DNA from: Desulfosporosinus youngiae DSM 17734
Lineage (GTDB): Bacteria > Bacillota > Desulfitobacteriia > Desulfitobacteriales > Desulfitobacteriaceae
DNA length: 64,000 nucleotides
Direction of reading: 5' to 3'
Assembly: GCF_000244895.1 (NCBI RefSeq)
Contig: NZ_CM001441.1
Coordinates: forward strand, 868,001 to 932,000
Shown here: in pieces, positions 2,731-55,364 of the stretch
How positions within the stretch are numbered: position 1 is the stretch's first letter
How the letters are laid out: the number at the start of each line of letters is the position of its first letter
The notes under the pieces: model-generated
What the model was told of the DNA's origin: nothing
Database searches by the model: none
The model's input: the letters and a program-made list of their open reading frames with translations, nothing else
Made by a program: the position numbers and the translations under genes

Positions 2731-3033
2731 GAGCAGGCGTCCATGCCGCTGAGGCGGTGTCGGCAGAGGGTGAAATGGGGGTCGCACGGGTCGCACGGGT
2801 CGGGCAGCTTCGCCCACATCCGTTCACCGCAGCATTCCGAGGCTCGCCCACTCGCCGGTGCGGGACTTCGCCAAACCTCCGGGTAATACCTGATGTGAAC
2901 CCGTGGCTCCGTTTCCCCGCACCGTCTTGTGGGCTTTTACCACCTCTCCATGCAATGGGTTCGCTTCTGTGGACGAAGCTGCCCTGCTTGCGGGCCTGGG
3001 GATTCTTCTGAATGTCTTTAATTTTTCAGAGTA
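2731..3033 (+). repeat. Dispersed structured repeat, copy A (about 300 bp)
   Basis: Nearly the whole spacer between the spoIID-like gene and queA is one copy of an element found inverted at 11587-11889. The core, 2798-3033, is over 90% identical by eye; the left 65 bp is more diverged, mostly by transitions. Inside it a 16-base inverted repeat, GGGCAGCTTCGCCCAC at 2802-2817 and its near reverse complement at 2969-2984, brackets about 150 bases containing further hairpins, including GGTGCGGG/CCCGCACC-type arms. No transposase is present. It may be a miniature mobile element or a structured RNA. Confidence 0.85.
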
Positions 3034-10823: not shown

Positions 10824-10851
10824 ACATTTATGCATTTGATTACATAGTCTA
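10824..10851 (+). promoter_or_regulatory. Sigma-K-like sporulation promoter
   Basis: AC at 10824-10825, a 17-base spacer, then CATAGTCTA at 10843-10851. This fits the late mother-cell consensus AC-N16-17-CATANNNTA. It lies 48 bases before the first of four tiny membrane-protein genes. The match is seen in the sequence; its use is inferred. Confidence 0.6.
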
Positions 10852-10898
10852 CTGTGAGCGAAAAAATAGAAAATACTGGAATGAGGAGGTTGTTAAAT

Positions 10899-11021
10899 AT
10901 GGGATTTGGTGTAGGTGCAGTTGAGGGTGTTGACGGTGGATGCGGACCTAATTATTTACCTGGAATTGCTATAGTCACGGTTATCATTCTTCTGTTAATC
11001 GCTATGGGTATAGTTTTCTAA
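10899..11021 (+). CDS. Tiny one-helix membrane protein 1 (YjcZ-like)
   Basis: A 40-residue protein with a glycine-rich N-terminus containing one Cys (GGCGPN), then a hydrophobic helix from about residue 21 to the end, finishing IAMGIVF. GAGGAGG lies upstream. It is first of four tandem genes with related C-terminal helices. The general build (Gly-rich head, single C-terminal helix, 25-45 residues) recalls the YjcZ-type sporulation proteins of Bacillus, but I cannot assign the family with certainty. The sigma-K-like promoter upstream supports a sporulation role. Confidence 0.75.
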   Translation: MGFGVGAVEGVDGGCGPNYLPGIAIVTVIILLLIAMGIVF

Positions 11022-11067
11022 TAAATCAAGGTTTAATCTTAAAAACTAAAATTAAGGGGGTTATAAC

Positions 11068-11205
11068 ATGTTCGGATTTGGAGCAGGTGGGGCCGGCTTT
11101 TCAGCAGCTTGTTTTCCGCCAGCCGCCCCGGGGGGCACTGGTATTGGTGTAGGAATCATTGCTATCGCAATTCTGATTTTAATTGCTTTAGGCGTTATAT
11201 TCTAA
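11068..11205 (+). CDS. Tiny one-helix membrane protein 2 (YjcZ-like)
   Basis: A 45-residue protein: a Gly/Ala/Pro-rich head with one Cys (SAACFPPAAPGG), then a helix ending ILIALGVIF. AAGGGGG precedes the ATG by about eight bases. The C-terminal helix is nearly the same as that of the fourth gene (IIAIAILILIALGVIF), whereas genes 1 and 3 share ILLLIAMGIVF, so the array alternates between two helix types. No enzymatic motif is present. Confidence 0.75.
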   Translation: MFGFGAGGAGFSAACFPPAAPGGTGIGVGIIAIAILILIALGVIF

Positions 11206-11242
11206 TCGATTAAGTCTGAGTATATTAAAGGAGGTCATGAGT

Positions 11243-11335
11243 ATGTTCAGATCAGGCGGGACTGGGTTAGGTGCAGGAATTGCAATCGTTGTAGTCATTA
11301 TTCTTTTGCTTATCGCTATGGGAATTGTATTTTAA
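11243..11335 (+). CDS. Tiny one-helix membrane protein 3 (YjcZ-like)
   Basis: A 30-residue protein: nine-residue polar/glycine head, then a helix ending ILLLIAMGIVF as in gene 1. I prefer ATG 11243, eight bases after AGGAGG; ATG 11237 is in frame but only two bases from it. It is the only member without a Cys in the head. Confidence 0.7.
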   Translation: MFRSGGTGLGAGIAIVVVIILLLIAMGIVF

Positions 11336-11391
11336 GGTTCGAGTCATGGCGGCGATTGGTGTCAGTTAAGATTTCATTTGGAGGTGATTTC

Positions 11392-11481
11392 ATGTACGGA
11401 TGTGGTGCTGGTGGATTTGCTGGTGCGGGAATTATAGCTATTGCTATTTTGATTCTGATTGCTTTAGGAGTCATTTTCTAA
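11392..11481 (+). CDS. Tiny one-helix membrane protein 4 (YjcZ-like)
   Basis: A 29-residue protein: MYGCGAGGFAGAG head with one Cys, then the helix IIAIAILILIALGVIF. GGAGGTG lies upstream. A strong hairpin terminator follows within 25 bases, so the four genes probably form one transcript. Confidence 0.75.
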   Translation: MYGCGAGGFAGAGIIAIAILILIALGVIF

Positions 11482-11504
11482 GCTTTCACCAAATAGGATT
11501 TGCC

Positions 11505-11540
11505 AGGGGGACCCCTGCCAAAAAGGGGGTCCCCTTTTTA
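11505..11540 (+). terminator. Terminator of the tiny-protein array
   Basis: A GC-rich stem, AGGGGGACCCC with GGGGGTCCCCT around TGCCAAAAA, followed by TTTTTA. Confidence 0.85.
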
Positions 11541-11586
11541 GTGTGTTTCACAGTCGCCCAATCCTGGTGGTTGTTAATACAGGGAC

Positions 11587-11889
11587 TACTCTGAAAAATT
11601 AAAGACCCGAAAGACATGCAGAAAAATCCCCAGACCCGCAAACAGGGCAGCTTCGTCCACAGAAGCGAACCCATTGCATGGAGAGGCGGTAAAAGCCCAC
11701 AAGACGGTGCGGGGAGACGGAGCCACGGGTTCACATCAGGTATTACCCGGAGGTTTGGCGAAGTCCCGCACCGGCGAGTGGGGCAAGCCTCGGAATGCTG
11801 AGGTGAGCGGATGTGGGCGAAGCTGCCCGACCCAAGCGGCCCCTTTTCATCTTCTGCTGGTGCCACCTTAGTTGCATAGGCGGCTATTC
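11587..11889 (-). repeat. Dispersed structured repeat, copy B (inverted)
   Basis: The inverted partner of 2731-3033. On this strand the arms GGGCAGCTTCGTCCAC (11646-11661) and GTGGGCGAAGCTGCCC (11813-11828) pair over 16 bases. Inside, GGTGCGGG/CCCGCACC and CCTC/GAGG hairpins are visible. Compared with copy A it has a roughly 12-base insertion near 11605. It fills the spacer between the tiny-protein array and the terminator of the minus-strand tryptophan-rich gene. Confidence 0.85.
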
Positions 11890-11895
11890 TAAAAT

Positions 11896-11926
11896 AGAAA
11901 AAGACGCCGGCATTAAATCCAGCGTC
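11896..11926 (-). terminator. Minus-strand terminator of the Trp-rich peptide gene
   Basis: On the minus strand GACGCTGG / CCGGCGTC (one G-U pair) encloses an eight-base loop and is followed by TTTTTCT. It lies 33 bases after the stop of the 28-residue gene. Confidence 0.8.
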
Positions 11927-11958
11927 ATCGAAATGTCCTTATTAATAAGAAATCATGC

Positions 11959-12045
11959 CTACCACCACCAACGTCGGCGAAAACCCCACCAAGGACCGAA
12001 TCCAAACCAGCCAGGGAAACCCCAAAACCAACGTCCCCACCACAT
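11959..12045 (-). CDS. 28-residue tryptophan-rich peptide
   Basis: A short minus-strand gene not related to anything I recognise. The peptide has ten Trp, three Phe-Gly-type turns and an RRR cluster before a terminal WWW; it starts MWWGRWFWGF. AAAGGAGG lies nine bases upstream of the ATG and a good terminator lies just downstream, so both expression signals are present. The composition suggests membrane-interface binding, a structural coat-like peptide or an antimicrobial-like role, none demonstrated. A possible sporulation -10 (CATATTCT) lies about 110 bases upstream of the ATG but its -35 spacing is poor. Confidence 0.7.
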   Translation of the reverse strand: MWWGRWFWGFPGWFGFGPWWGFRRRWWW

Positions 12046-12292
12046 AGAGAAAACCTCCTTTAGATTCTTGTTTCAGTCACTTCGATTAGCATAGCATCAG
12101 TTTCGAATTTATCTGACAGCTTTGCTTAACTGCTACACTACAGAATATGAATTGTGTTGGTAGTCCTGTTCCAATTAATCCATTAATTTACTATACGATA
12201 GATGTACAGGAATCCTGAATCCTCCGAAAGATTAGATTGGTTATTACTGGGATATACTAATACGAACATAGTGGTAGGGGGAGAGAGGTTTC

Positions 12293-12739
12293 TTGGGATT
12301 CATTCAACTGGTACTACTAGAAGGAGTACTTCTTCTTTCCGCAGGAATGATTTTCTTTGGAGGGATTCGGGGAACTGTTGCGGCGATGGCCGCTTTAAGT
12401 GGGATCAACTATCTTACTCATGACCTGGCACAGTTTTGGCGCTGGGAAATCCCTTTGCTTGTCGGAGGGAGCGCAGGAATTATTTTGCTGCTTATTGTCG
12501 GGAGGATTGGCAATAAAAGCAAAGCAGTGGGTGGATTAGTAGGAGGATTAACTAGTTTAGTTTTCTTTGGTGCCTTTGTTACCCCAATTATCGCGGTTGC
12601 CCTTTGGGCCTTAGTTTTTGGTACAGGTATAATTCCTAAAAGCGAGAAAAAACAGGTGATCTGGGGTTTTGCCCCTGCAATTTTGCGCATGGTTTTGGGA
12701 ATAGGGTGGATTATTTACGGAAATTTTTTAACAATTTAA
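12293..12739 (+). CDS. Small integral membrane protein, unknown function
   Basis: A 148-residue, very hydrophobic protein with about four transmembrane segments and glycine-zipper-like repeats (VGGLVGGLTSLVFFGAF). The start is TTG 12293 after GGGGGAGAGAGG; no better start exists. I do not recognise the family. It stands alone: upstream 12046-12292 holds only AT-rich sequence with a possible TATACT -10 near 12254, and downstream is the CDF leader. Confidence 0.6.
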   Translation: MGFIQLVLLEGVLLLSAGMIFFGGIRGTVAAMAALSGINYLTHDLAQFWRWEIPLLVGGSAGIILLLIVGRIGNKSKAVGGLVGGLTSLVFFGAFVTPIIAVALWALVFGTGIIPKSEKKQVIWGFAPAILRMVLGIGWIIYGNFLTI

Positions 12740-12824: not shown

Positions 12825-12830
12825 ATACAT

Positions 12831-12923
12831 TAACTTATATTGTCAGGCAAATAGCTGGGCTTCGAGCTTTGAAGCAGCGGAGGAATCTGCGGGACTACCT
12901 TTTTATAAGGGGTCCTATTTTTA
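12831..12923 (+). promoter_or_regulatory. Riboswitch-like leader with terminator (NiCo candidate)
   Basis: The leader contains CAGGCAA (12844-12850), GCAGCGGAGG, then GGGAC (12891-12895). From memory these resemble conserved parts of the NiCo (czcD) riboswitch. The GGGAC segment overlaps a terminator: GGAC..CCTT (12892-12901) pairs with AAGG.GTCC (12907-12915), followed by TATTTTTA. A cation efflux gene follows, which fits metal control. Against it, one of the four expected helices and a convincing P1 are not visible. Confidence 0.4.
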
Positions 12924-12971
12924 TGTACCAGGTTAGTTACCGATGGAAATGGGTAGTAGGAGAGTGGAGTC

Positions 12972-13991
12972 GTGGATGAGAAAACAAAGGTGGCCTCATT
13001 ATCTGTCGCTTCGAATATTTTATTAACCTTGACTAAAATCGTAGTTGGGCTAATCAGTGGTTCAGTGAGTATCTTATCTGAAGGAATACACTCCGGAATC
13101 GATCTGGTGGCAGCCTTTATTGCACTCTTTGCAGTGAAAGAGTCGGGCAAACCTGCAGATTCATGTCATGCTTATGGACACGGAAAAATCGAAAATGTAT
13201 CCGGTACAATAGAAGCGGCTCTGATATTTGTTGCAGCGCTTATGATTATCATTGAGGCAATTCAGAAGGTTCAAGAAATTATCTATGGTAATGGAGGGCA
13301 TGTCACAGATCTGGGCCTGAGACTCGGCCTGCTTATTATGGGTGTTTCAGCTCTGATGAACATGATTGTATCCGCAAGGCTTATGAAGGTTGCTAAGAAA
13401 ACTGATTCTGTAGCCCTTGAAGCGGATGCCTTGCATTTACGGACCGATGTGTATACTTCTTTAGGCGTTTTTTTGGGTTTACTGATCATTAAGCTGACAG
13501 GGTGGGCCATAATCGACCCCATCATTGCCTTCGCTGTTGCGTTAATGATTATAAAGGCTGCCATAGATTTGACAAAGAAGGCTTTTGCACCTCTCGTTGA
13601 TGTCAGCTTGCCTGATGAAGAACGTAAGATTATTGCTGAAGTCCTTCAGCTTTATGAGGATGAATTTGTTGAATTCCATAAACTTAGAACCCGAAAGGCT
13701 GGAGCAGAAAGGCACGTCGATTTGCATTTAGTTGTGGCAAAGTTCACGCCGCTTATTGATGCTCATGAACTATGTGACAGGATTGAATACGAAATTAATG
13801 TGAAATTGTCGCTGACCCATGTATTAATTCATGCAGAACCCTGCAGCGGCAGAGACGTACCATGTCCTGTTGAGGACGGGCTGGCATCCTTTTGTCAGCG
13901 TTGCCGAAAGACGACCGGGGAGACGGACCAGAAGTCAGCTATCGGAAACAAACCGGAAGTCAGTGGTCAGGGGCCGGAGATCAGAGATTGA
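12972..13991 (+). CDS. Cation diffusion facilitator (CDF) family metal exporter
   Basis: A 339-residue CDF transporter exporting divalent metals (Zn, Co, Fe, Mn or Ni) in exchange for protons. Six transmembrane helices occupy residues 10-205. The metal-site residues are visible as SEGIHSGIDL in helix 2 and ALEADALHLRTDVYTS in helix 5. A cytoplasmic domain follows (HVDLHLVV), and then a Cys-rich tail (CSGRDVPCP, FCQRC) that could bind metal. The start is GTG 12972 after AGGAGAG. The leader suggests metal-responsive attenuation. Confidence 0.92.
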   Translation: MDEKTKVASLSVASNILLTLTKIVVGLISGSVSILSEGIHSGIDLVAAFIALFAVKESGKPADSCHAYGHGKIENVSGTIEAALIFVAALMIIIEAIQKVQEIIYGNGGHVTDLGLRLGLLIMGVSALMNMIVSARLMKVAKKTDSVALEADALHLRTDVYTSLGVFLGLLIIKLTGWAIIDPIIAFAVALMIIKAAIDLTKKAFAPLVDVSLPDEERKIIAEVLQLYEDEFVEFHKLRTRKAGAERHVDLHLVVAKFTPLIDAHELCDRIEYEINVKLSLTHVLIHAEPCSGRDVPCPVEDGLASFCQRCRKTTGETDQKSAIGNKPEVSGQGPEIRD

Positions 13992-53077: not shown

Positions 53078-54466
53078 ATGAAACTGATTTTGCTCTCTGG
53101 TGGTTCAGGAAAACGACTATGGCCGTTATCAAATAATTTTCGTTCAAAACAATTTTTGAAACTCCTAAAAAACGATCATGGTGGACGCGAATCTATGATT
53201 CAGCGAGTGTGGGGTCAATTGAAAGTTAGGGATTTAGCTAAGTCTACTATTATTTCTACCAATAAATCTCAAGTTAATATTATTCAAAGTCAGCTGGGCG
53301 AATCCGTTGAGATGATCGTCGAACCAGAACGAAGGGATACTTATCCGGCGATTGCTCTGGCTGCAGCATATTTAGCGTCTGTTAAACAAGTTGGCCTGAA
53401 TGAAGTGGTTGTTGTAGTTCCGGTGGATTCCTATGTGAACAGCCGCTTTTTTGATCTGGTCAAGGAACTGGAAGATGCGCTTACAGCAACGGAAGCTAAT
53501 CTTGCCCTTGTAGGTGTTATGCCCACTTACCCTTCCGAAAGGCATGGCTATATTGTTCCTGAATCAAACCAAGAGCATAGGCTTGTCAAGGTTGGCTCTT
53601 TTAGAGAAAAGCCGACGAGAGAACAAGCGCTAAAACTGATCGCGGAGGGAGCTCTGTGGAATTGTGGGGTATTTGCCTTTAAATTAGGCTATGTTATTTC
53701 AAAGCTCGAGAAGCATAATCTACCTGTGGATTACAAAAGCCTGAAAGACGAGTATTCTGCCTTGCCTAAGATAAGTTTTGATTATGAAGTTGTTGAAAAG
53801 GCCAGGAAGGTAATTGCACTGCGCTATGAAGGAGAATGGAAAGACATAGGTACATGGAAGACCTTATCAGATGAAATTTCGGCACCAGTTATCGGAAATG
53901 GTGTCTTAAGCGGAGACTGTGAGGGAACCCATCTAATAAATGAGTTGGGTATTCCGATTATTGTTCTTGGCTTGTCGAATACGATTGTTGCTGCAAGTCC
54001 GGACGGTATTTTGGTATCGGATAAAGAAACAAGTCCAAAAGTAAAGGATCTGCTTAAGGAAACTATTCAGAGGCCAATGTTTGAGGAACGGCGCTGGGGT
54101 TGGTATCGGGTGCTGGATTATGTGAAATATGAAAATGGACAAGAGGTTTTGACTAAACGAATAGGAATAACGGCGGGTAAAAATCTAAGTTATCAAGTTC
54201 ATTACAAACGAAGTGAAATATGGAGTATCACAAATGGAGAAGGAGAATTGGCTCTTGATGATGCAATTTTTAGAGTCAAGCCAGGAGATGTGTTCCGTAT
54301 TCCAATTGGAGTCAGACATGGAATATGGGCAAGCACTGATTTAGAGTTTATTGAAGTTCAATCGGGAAGGCAGCTGATTGAAGAAGATATAACTAGGATT
54401 TACATGACTTGGGAGGAAGTAAAGGGGCATTGTAAAGGTCGCCTAAATCTTGACGCAATTAATTAG
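53078..54466 (+). CDS. manC: Mannose-1-phosphate guanylyltransferase (ManC type)
   Basis: A 462-residue protein: a nucleotidyltransferase domain beginning LILLSGGSGKRLWPLS (the GGxGxRLWPLS signature) with EPERRDTYPAIALAA, and a C-terminal cupin (YKRSEIWSITNGEGE, KPGDVFRIPIGVRHG) as in ManC/mannose-6-phosphate isomerase type II proteins. It supplies GDP-mannose. The conserved F-V-E-K-P region appears as SFREKP. AAGGAG precedes ATG. It closes the glycan cluster. Confidence 0.92.
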   Translation: MKLILLSGGSGKRLWPLSNNFRSKQFLKLLKNDHGGRESMIQRVWGQLKVRDLAKSTIISTNKSQVNIIQSQLGESVEMIVEPERRDTYPAIALAAAYLASVKQVGLNEVVVVVPVDSYVNSRFFDLVKELEDALTATEANLALVGVMPTYPSERHGYIVPESNQEHRLVKVGSFREKPTREQALKLIAEGALWNCGVFAFKLGYVISKLEKHNLPVDYKSLKDEYSALPKISFDYEVVEKARKVIALRYEGEWKDIGTWKTLSDEISAPVIGNGVLSGDCEGTHLINELGIPIIVLGLSNTIVAASPDGILVSDKETSPKVKDLLKETIQRPMFEERRWGWYRVLDYVKYENGQEVLTKRIGITAGKNLSYQVHYKRSEIWSITNGEGELALDDAIFRVKPGDVFRIPIGVRHGIWASTDLEFIEVQSGRQLIEEDITRIYMTWEEVKGHCKGRLNLDAIN

Positions 54467-54620: not shown

Positions 54621-55364
54621 ATGATCGCTGAACTCTTTTTTGTCAGTATTGCACTTTCCGTTCTTAAGGGAGTTACTTTACTAGTCTCGTATATCAATAA
54701 TAATGCTTTTCCTCAGCCCTTAAATGAGCAGGAGGAAGGGCGTTATCTGAAAATCCTGGCTGAAAGTAAAACTGAACCCTTTACTCTAACCCCTGAAGTT
54801 GAGAATGCCCGCAATACGTTAGTGGAGCATAATTTACGGTTAGTAGCTCATCTCGTCAAAAAATTTGATGGAACCGGGGAAGATGGGGACGATTTAATCT
54901 CGATTGGTACGATTGGTTTAATTAAAGGGATTAATACCTTTGATCCCAATAAAGGGACCAAACTTGCCACTTATGCCGCACGGTGTATCGAAAACGAAAT
55001 CTTAATGCATTTGCGGTCATTGAAAAAATCCCGGGGCGAAGTCTCTATATACGATCCCATCGGAACGGATAAAGAGGGTAACGAAATTTCCCTCATTGAT
55101 GTTCTGGGTTCGAATGAAGAGGATATCTCGTTAAAAGTTGAAAATGAATCCGAACAAAAGGCTTTGCTCGAACTTGTTAAGAAGCTGACCAAAAGGGAAA
55201 AGCTCGTTCTTCAGTTGAGATATGGATTGATGAACAGCCCGAAGCGTACCCAGCGTGAGATTGCCAAGGCCTTGGCTATTTCCAGATCCTATGTTTCCCG
55301 TATTGAAAAAAAGGCCATTCAAAAATTAATGGAAGAGATGGCGAAGATTGATTCAAATAGGTAA
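54621..55364 (+). CDS. sigK: RNA polymerase sigma-K factor (pro-sigma-K)
   Basis: A 247-residue mother-cell sporulation sigma factor. It begins with a hydrophobic pro-sequence (residues about 1-20, AELFFVSIALSVLKGV) of the kind removed by SpoIVFB, then region 2 (LVEHNLRLVAHLVKKFD, DLISIGTIGLIKGINTFDP, KLATYAARCIENEILMHLR), region 3 and region 4 (REIAKALAISRSYVSRIEKKA). The reading frame is unbroken, with no skin-type interruption. ATG 54621 follows AAAGGGG; GTG 54612 is an alternative. Confidence 0.95.
   Translation: MIAELFFVSIALSVLKGVTLLVSYINNNAFPQPLNEQEEGRYLKILAESKTEPFTLTPEVENARNTLVEHNLRLVAHLVKKFDGTGEDGDDLISIGTIGLIKGINTFDPNKGTKLATYAARCIENEILMHLRSLKKSRGEVSIYDPIGTDKEGNEISLIDVLGSNEEDISLKVENESEQKALLELVKKLTKREKLVLQLRYGLMNSPKRTQREIAKALAISRSYVSRIEKKAIQKLMEEMAKIDSNR

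Follow-up and report, generated by a model that had tools for sequence, protein, structure and literature searches.

A conserved tryptophan-rich micro-protein gene with a sigma-K-like promoter layout in Desulfosporosinus youngiae and its relatives

The locus described here lies within a 64,000-nucleotide stretch of the Desulfosporosinus youngiae DSM 17734 genome, which we call the window. It comprises a minus-strand ORF for a micro-protein rich in Trp, Gly, Phe, Arg and Pro, an array of four tiny membrane protein ORFs on the plus strand that converges on it, and a divergently transcribed gene for a 148-aa membrane protein (Table 1). The minus-strand ORF translates to MWWGRWFWGFPGWFGFGPWWGFRRRWWW, with Trp at residues 2, 3, 6, 8, 13, 19, 20, 26, 27 and 28 and Arg at residues 23 to 25, so the 28-residue peptide with ten tryptophans and an RRR run that a first-pass annotation had singled out was read correctly. 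The Shine-Dalgarno site and hairpin-T5 terminator described in that annotation are likewise present. The terminator stem, GACGCTGG-loop-CCGGCGTC, is followed by TTTTT, runs from 11926 to 11903 and starts 32 nt past the stop codon.

Table 1. Features of the locus, in window coordinates.
Feature	Position	Strand	Remarks
Sigma-K-like promoter motif of the tiny-protein array	10824..10851	+	TTAAC-N17-CATAGTCTA
Tiny membrane protein 1	10899..11021	+	ATG with Shine-Dalgarno site; program-made ORF begins at 10854
Tiny membrane protein 2	11068..11205	+	
Tiny membrane protein 3	11237..11335	+	
Tiny membrane protein 4	11392..11481	+	ATG; program-made ORF begins at 11356
Terminator hairpin of the tiny-protein array	11505..11536	+	
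Intrinsic terminator hairpin and T5 of the Trp gene	11903..11926	-	
W/G/F/R/P-rich micro-protein ORF (Trp gene)	11959..12045	-	28 aa, stop codon included
Expected 18-residue fragment of the Trp micro-protein			WFWGFPGWFGFGPWWGFR
Shine-Dalgarno site of the Trp gene	12054..12061	-	AAAGGAGG; GGAGG to ATG 8 nt
Sigma-K-like promoter motif of the Trp gene	12141..12169	-	AC-N18-CATATTCTG; spacing 18, -10 ending TG, not TA
Conserved neighbouring gene for a 148-aa membrane protein, pointing away from the Trp gene	12293..12739	+	

To place the gene among its relatives, 82 genomes of the class were searched with a peptide profile (E up to 0.1). Homologues were found in 23 of them: 20 of the 29 Desulfosporosinus genomes, three of the 16 others in the family (two g5, one g6) and none of the 37 outside the family. 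One of these, in G002, first came up by a DNA-pattern search. Several weak matches were left out as chance: partial ones of at most 53% identity (L011 and L014-L023, of which 9 of 11 had a frame of 85 aa or more or an internal stop), eight rows with E from 0.11 to 0.95 (L051-L058), a match of 13 columns in a 139-aa frame of G027 (E 0.0076), and one of 18 columns in G174 (E 0.0067), which has no Shine-Dalgarno site and no start codon preceding it except within the match itself. Among 398 sampled genomes of the phylum, only the window's own genome was recovered, apart from one partial match attributed to chance; rarer relatives could escape such a sampling. A DNA search of plasmids gave 31 records with short matches, none reaching 80% of the query.

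The frame is almost certainly a genuine gene. GGAGG stands 7-9 nt upstream of the ATG in all 23 copies, and a lax script found a hairpin with a T-rich tail 3' of the stop codon in 19 of them. The pattern AGGAGGT-N1..12-ATGTGGTGGGG, which constrains the Shine-Dalgarno site and first codons only, occurred in 17 of the 29 Desulfosporosinus genomes, against none of 29 for the reversed control pattern, and every one of the 17 pattern-positive genomes carries an open frame of the family. Differences between 11 disjoint, hand-chosen pairs of copies (320 codons) fell on codon positions 1, 2 and 3 in the numbers 17, 12 and 69. The same pairs gave a pN/pS of 0.15, from 57.2 synonymous differences over 165.7 sites and 40.8 non-synonymous differences over 794.3. 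This third-position bias and low pN/pS show that the peptide itself is under purifying selection. These results bear out the earlier statement that the frame did not arise by chance. The checks proposed with it, a search of relatives for homologues with a Shine-Dalgarno site and for frameshifts and a selection analysis, returned the 23 homologues with their ribosome-binding sites and the pN/pS value above, so that the refuting conditions set there, a lack of such homologues or frameshifts in them, do not apply. By sequence, the conserved Shine-Dalgarno site, a sigma-K-like motif and the hairpin also agree with the proposal that the gene has its own minus-strand transcript.

The family has a narrow chemistry. 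Across the 673 residues that follow the initiator Met in the 23 copies, Trp makes up 33.0%, Gly 26.2%, Phe 18.0%, Arg 12.5% and Pro 7.7%, together 97.3%, and there are no acidic residues. Individual copies are 27-36 aa long, contain 8-12 Trp and carry a net charge of +3 to +5. Length changes are of whole codons only, often as GFGPW-like units. Ten positions are invariant in the 21 distinct sequences (M1, G9, P11, G15, F16, P18, W19, R24, R25 and W27), and an Arg pair or run directly precedes the terminal aromatic run in 23 of 23 copies. The proteins have no secretion signal or leader. Searches of Pfam (E up to 10) and NCBIfam assigned no family, and no PDB chain of 20 residues or more matched at E up to 10. 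An AlphaFold model of a 33-aa homologue had no confident fold (mean pLDDT 59.7, pTM 0.15), with helix at residues 12-16 only.

The neighbourhood of the gene is conserved as well. The 148-aa membrane protein gene, whose product matched no Pfam family above cut-off and no NCBIfam family, is its upstream-side neighbour in 22 of 23 genomes, and in 20 of these 22 the tiny-protein array lies on the other side, convergent, so that in 20 genomes the Trp gene sits between the two. In G017 and G033 the array was not seen within the stretch examined, and the contig ends nearby; in G063 it lies 4.2 kb away with other genes between, and the non-overlapped frames of annotated length there run opposite to the Trp gene. 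In 19 insert-free stretches 146-304 nt separate the Trp gene from the 148-aa gene. In G005 and G002 the distance is about 1.4 kb, with another gene in between, on the strand of the Trp gene and directly upstream of it (L062 1156-2265, minus strand, and L078 6780-7870, plus strand). The intervening gene of G002 reads as two overlapping frames, and the Trp gene there lacks the AC motif. Other recurring neighbours, identified by Pfam in stretches some of which are bounded by contig ends or chosen limits, are an HD-domain gene, secD, secF, a polysaccharide deacetylase gene, a cation efflux gene, recJ, apt and relA. No deacetylase was detected in G002, no efflux gene in G062, G063 and G033, no apt in G003, G014 and G033, and no relA in G003, G014 and G063.

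The tiny ORFs of the array (10899-11481) encode Gly-rich proteins with a single hydrophobic stretch, and 4 to 8 copies were present in the genomes inspected. ORFs 1, 3 and 4 matched nothing in Pfam at E up to 10, and ORF 2 had only a sub-threshold match to Spore_YtfJ (E 0.015, 16 of 25 bits). Membership in YjcZ_2 (PF09680) was rejected, since no match was found in the whole genome at E up to 10, with a B. subtilis control scoring over the cut-off. Two further elements were noticed. A dispersed repeat of about 300 bp has window copies at 11586-11895 and 2788-3033. This genome holds 51 pieces that match it, and the larger pieces share 86-94% identity with the window copy; of all loci compared, only those of this genome contained it, and the region 11500-11960 had no Rfam match up to E 1. 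A conserved structured RNA with a terminator (12830-12925, plus strand) precedes the cation efflux gene (12972-13991). It aligns across the whole NiCo riboswitch model RF02683, scoring 17.4 bits, far below the gathering threshold of 37, and its terminator string recurs in 24 of 28 regions. It is probably a divergent NiCo-type riboswitch, and we dropped in its favour a reading as a sporulation sRNA.

The Trp gene can be missing. Eight Desulfosporosinus genomes keep the tiny array and the 148-aa gene with no Trp-family ORF between them, and the gene is therefore dispensable; a ninth without it (G016) had no match to the 148-aa protein. G008 has a 48-aa frame containing 6 Trp that lies over tiny ORF 2 in another reading frame. 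A tree built on two neighbouring proteins in 31 genomes, several of its branches being weak, is consistent with an old Trp gene that was lost more than once.

The new result is a promoter layout, predicted upstream of the Trp gene, that resembles that of sigma-K. In C. difficile, as reported in PMC3789822, the -35 element is AC for sigma-K and ATA for sigma-E, with similar -10 elements. For B. subtilis, the sigma-K motif is given as two blocks, of five and ten bases, separated by 14-16 nt (PMC517825). The layout AC-N16..18-CATANNNT[AG] was found within 150 nt of the start codon in 20 of 23 Trp-gene copies, with a spacing of 17 in 18 of the 20. The -10 element was present in all 23, and stood without AC in three, G002 and the two g5 copies. 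The window's own motif is not the best match, with its spacing of 18 and CATATTCTG. In G024, where the Trp gene has been relocated, the promoter motif was kept, and a hairpin was seen by eye. Markov-resampled upstream sequence gave a mean of 0.48 positives in 23 and a maximum of 4 over 500 rounds. With 14 hand-picked representatives, 12 were positive, compared with a mean of 0.30 and a maximum of 3 in 2000 dinucleotide shuffles. The upstream regions of these 14 have a median identity of 0.77; since they are related, shared ancestry adds to the motif count and the shuffles overstate its significance, and other genes are the better control.

We therefore examined the same layout at other genes. 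It was absent from all 199 loci of nine neighbouring genes (150 nt upstream) and present in 25 of 26 tiny arrays (best-matching ORF 1 copy per genome). The first-pass annotation had noted only that the peptide gene faces this array; the shared promoter layout makes the link stronger than was claimed. Both dpaA and a YabG-like gene are under sigma-K in C. difficile (PMC3789822). Here dpaA had the layout at 26 of 30 loci (30 loci covered, among 34 matches listed), whereas at yabG the AC motif was found at none of 27 loci and the -10 at 26, the sole miss being a locus mis-anchored by a contig end (L155). A conserved ATATGCCGTTT-like stretch, not AC, precedes the -10 at the yabG loci (L146-L172), and yabG in this genus may use another sigma factor. 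The intended sigma-E control, spoIVA, showed neither the K nor the E layout in 29 loci, and says little because the sigma-E layout was missing there too. The motif is not confined to these genes: the 64-kb window has 11 sites, both strands counted, and of 28 stretches lying between the 148-aa gene and the efflux gene, 7 contain it with 16-18 nt spacing, within or beyond 150 nt. The window also contains the sigma-K gene (TIGR02846, 326.3 bits against a cut-off of 298.65; match 54651-55340, plus strand). A site AC-N16-CATANNNT[AG] lies at 54453, about 200 nt before that match, as expected if sigK is autoregulated; in C. difficile, sigK itself has a sigma-K-type promoter (PMC3789822). Taken together, these counts favour sigma-K, yabG being a counter-example, and a sporulation mother-cell promoter very probably drives the Trp gene.

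On balance, and by a modest margin of confidence, we favour the whole reading in which the gene encodes a micro-protein of the spore envelope that is made in the mother cell under sigma-K-type control. The layout missing at yabG, the absence of the gene from eight genomes that keep its neighbours and the lack of a confident fold weigh against this reading. We infer that sigma-K would activate the gene during late sporulation, in the mother cell, jointly with the convergent tiny array. Hypothetically, the Trp, Phe and Arg residues, spaced by Gly and Pro, would then associate with the coat as it forms, or with the outer membrane of the forespore, through aromatic stacking and Arg-aromatic contacts, and the protein would end up in the spore envelope as a cement or structural component. 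A self-associating structural part acting with the tiny membrane proteins would fit the presumed timing in the late mother cell, the absence of a leader and the Gly/Pro-spaced Trp/Phe/Arg composition. Of the membrane-interface, coat and antimicrobial-like roles put forward earlier, a spore coat or envelope role is the one favoured by the promoter motif; the other two are possible alternatives.

Among characterized systems, the layout is that of the sigma-K regulon, with its late mother-cell and coat genes and, in this same genus, the dpaA control, although the promoter here is predicted from sequence, no known coat protein was found to be related to the micro-protein by sequence, and yabG of this genus lacks the AC layout. 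SscA/YjcZ is a tiny sporulation protein, SpoVM and CmpA are also very small, and SpoVM is an amphipathic-helix peptide. The Trp micro-protein would resemble these three in being very small and sporulation-linked, and differs from SpoVM in being Gly/Pro-rich with no confident predicted fold. SpoVM and CmpA are described as sporulation proteins in PMC5607322. The strings MWWGRW, GFRRWWW and FGFGPWWGF were absent from the open-access literature searched, and a title-level survey of that literature found no Trp-rich spore proteins of this kind.

The main rival is a membrane-active Trp/Arg-rich peptide, made late in the mother cell, that aids mother-cell lysis or harms neighbours at spore release. 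Indolicidin and tritrpticin, antimicrobial peptides of this type, are short, cationic and rich in Trp, Pro and Arg. The Trp micro-protein shares these traits, and its positive charge, want of acidic residues, 8-12 Trp and Arg before the terminal aromatics in every copy would all suit such an activity, as the presumed timing would suit lysis. The gene differs, however, in its predicted sporulation-type promoter, and among its identified conserved neighbours (HD domain, SecD, SecF, polysaccharide deacetylase, cation efflux, RecJ, phosphoribosyltransferase and RelA/SpoT) there is no dedicated exporter, leader-processing or immunity gene; SecDF is a part of the general translocase. The lack of a PDB-chain match also counts against it, as a weak test, since classic Trp-rich antimicrobial peptides are about 13 residues long and a library of at least 20 residues excludes them. 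We consider this explanation unlikely.

Less probable still is a Trp-dense UV screen or oxidant sink in the spore envelope, with indole rings absorbing UV or quenching oxidants, for which sequence would matter only for solubility and packing. A protein that is one third Trp with hardly any other chemistry invites the idea, but the ten invariant positions suggest more than bulk Trp, and many of these anaerobes live away from light, which counts against the UV screen. That an RNA element is the conserved entity and the frame incidental is very improbable: the strand is G-rich and a hairpin usually follows, but the codon-position pattern, the pN/pS and the whole-codon length differences are those of a peptide, and the window had no Rfam match here at gathering thresholds, so an RNA element in place of the peptide was rejected.

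A tryptophan leader peptide attenuating a trp operon is scarcely credible, for although a TrpL-type leader is likewise a short ORF of clustered Trp codons followed by a hairpin, the Trp gene and the array are convergent in all 20 genomes seen on both sides, with no same-strand gene before the array and hence no regulated downstream gene, and its non-Trp positions are conserved too. We examined attenuation because in G024 (L064 4584-8164) the Trp gene has moved to a site some 480 nt upstream of trp genes and shares their strand. Control of those genes is explained there by their own T-box (109.2 bits, gathering threshold 93), which lies between the hairpin of the Trp gene and the trp genes, and attenuation was rejected.

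Returning to the spore-envelope reading, its boldest form is a new class of envelope material, a sigma-K-driven aromatic "sticker" that self-assembles with the co-regulated tiny membrane proteins and seals the spore surface; this we regard as speculative and rather doubtful as it stands. A conserved protein that is one third Trp, the costliest amino acid to make, is in any case very unusual, and it has no Pfam or NCBIfam model. The gene also illustrates that a 28-codon ORF, easily missed in annotation, can be a genuine developmental gene. It offers a regulatory address, the late mother cell, and a set of co-regulated tiny membrane proteins, and with them a handle on spore-envelope assembly beyond Bacillus; coat assembly in Clostridia was described as relatively little known as of 2017 (PMC5607322). 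Because of its apparent late-sporulation switch, the Trp micro-protein is probably built into the spore envelope of spore-forming sulfate-reducing bacteria.
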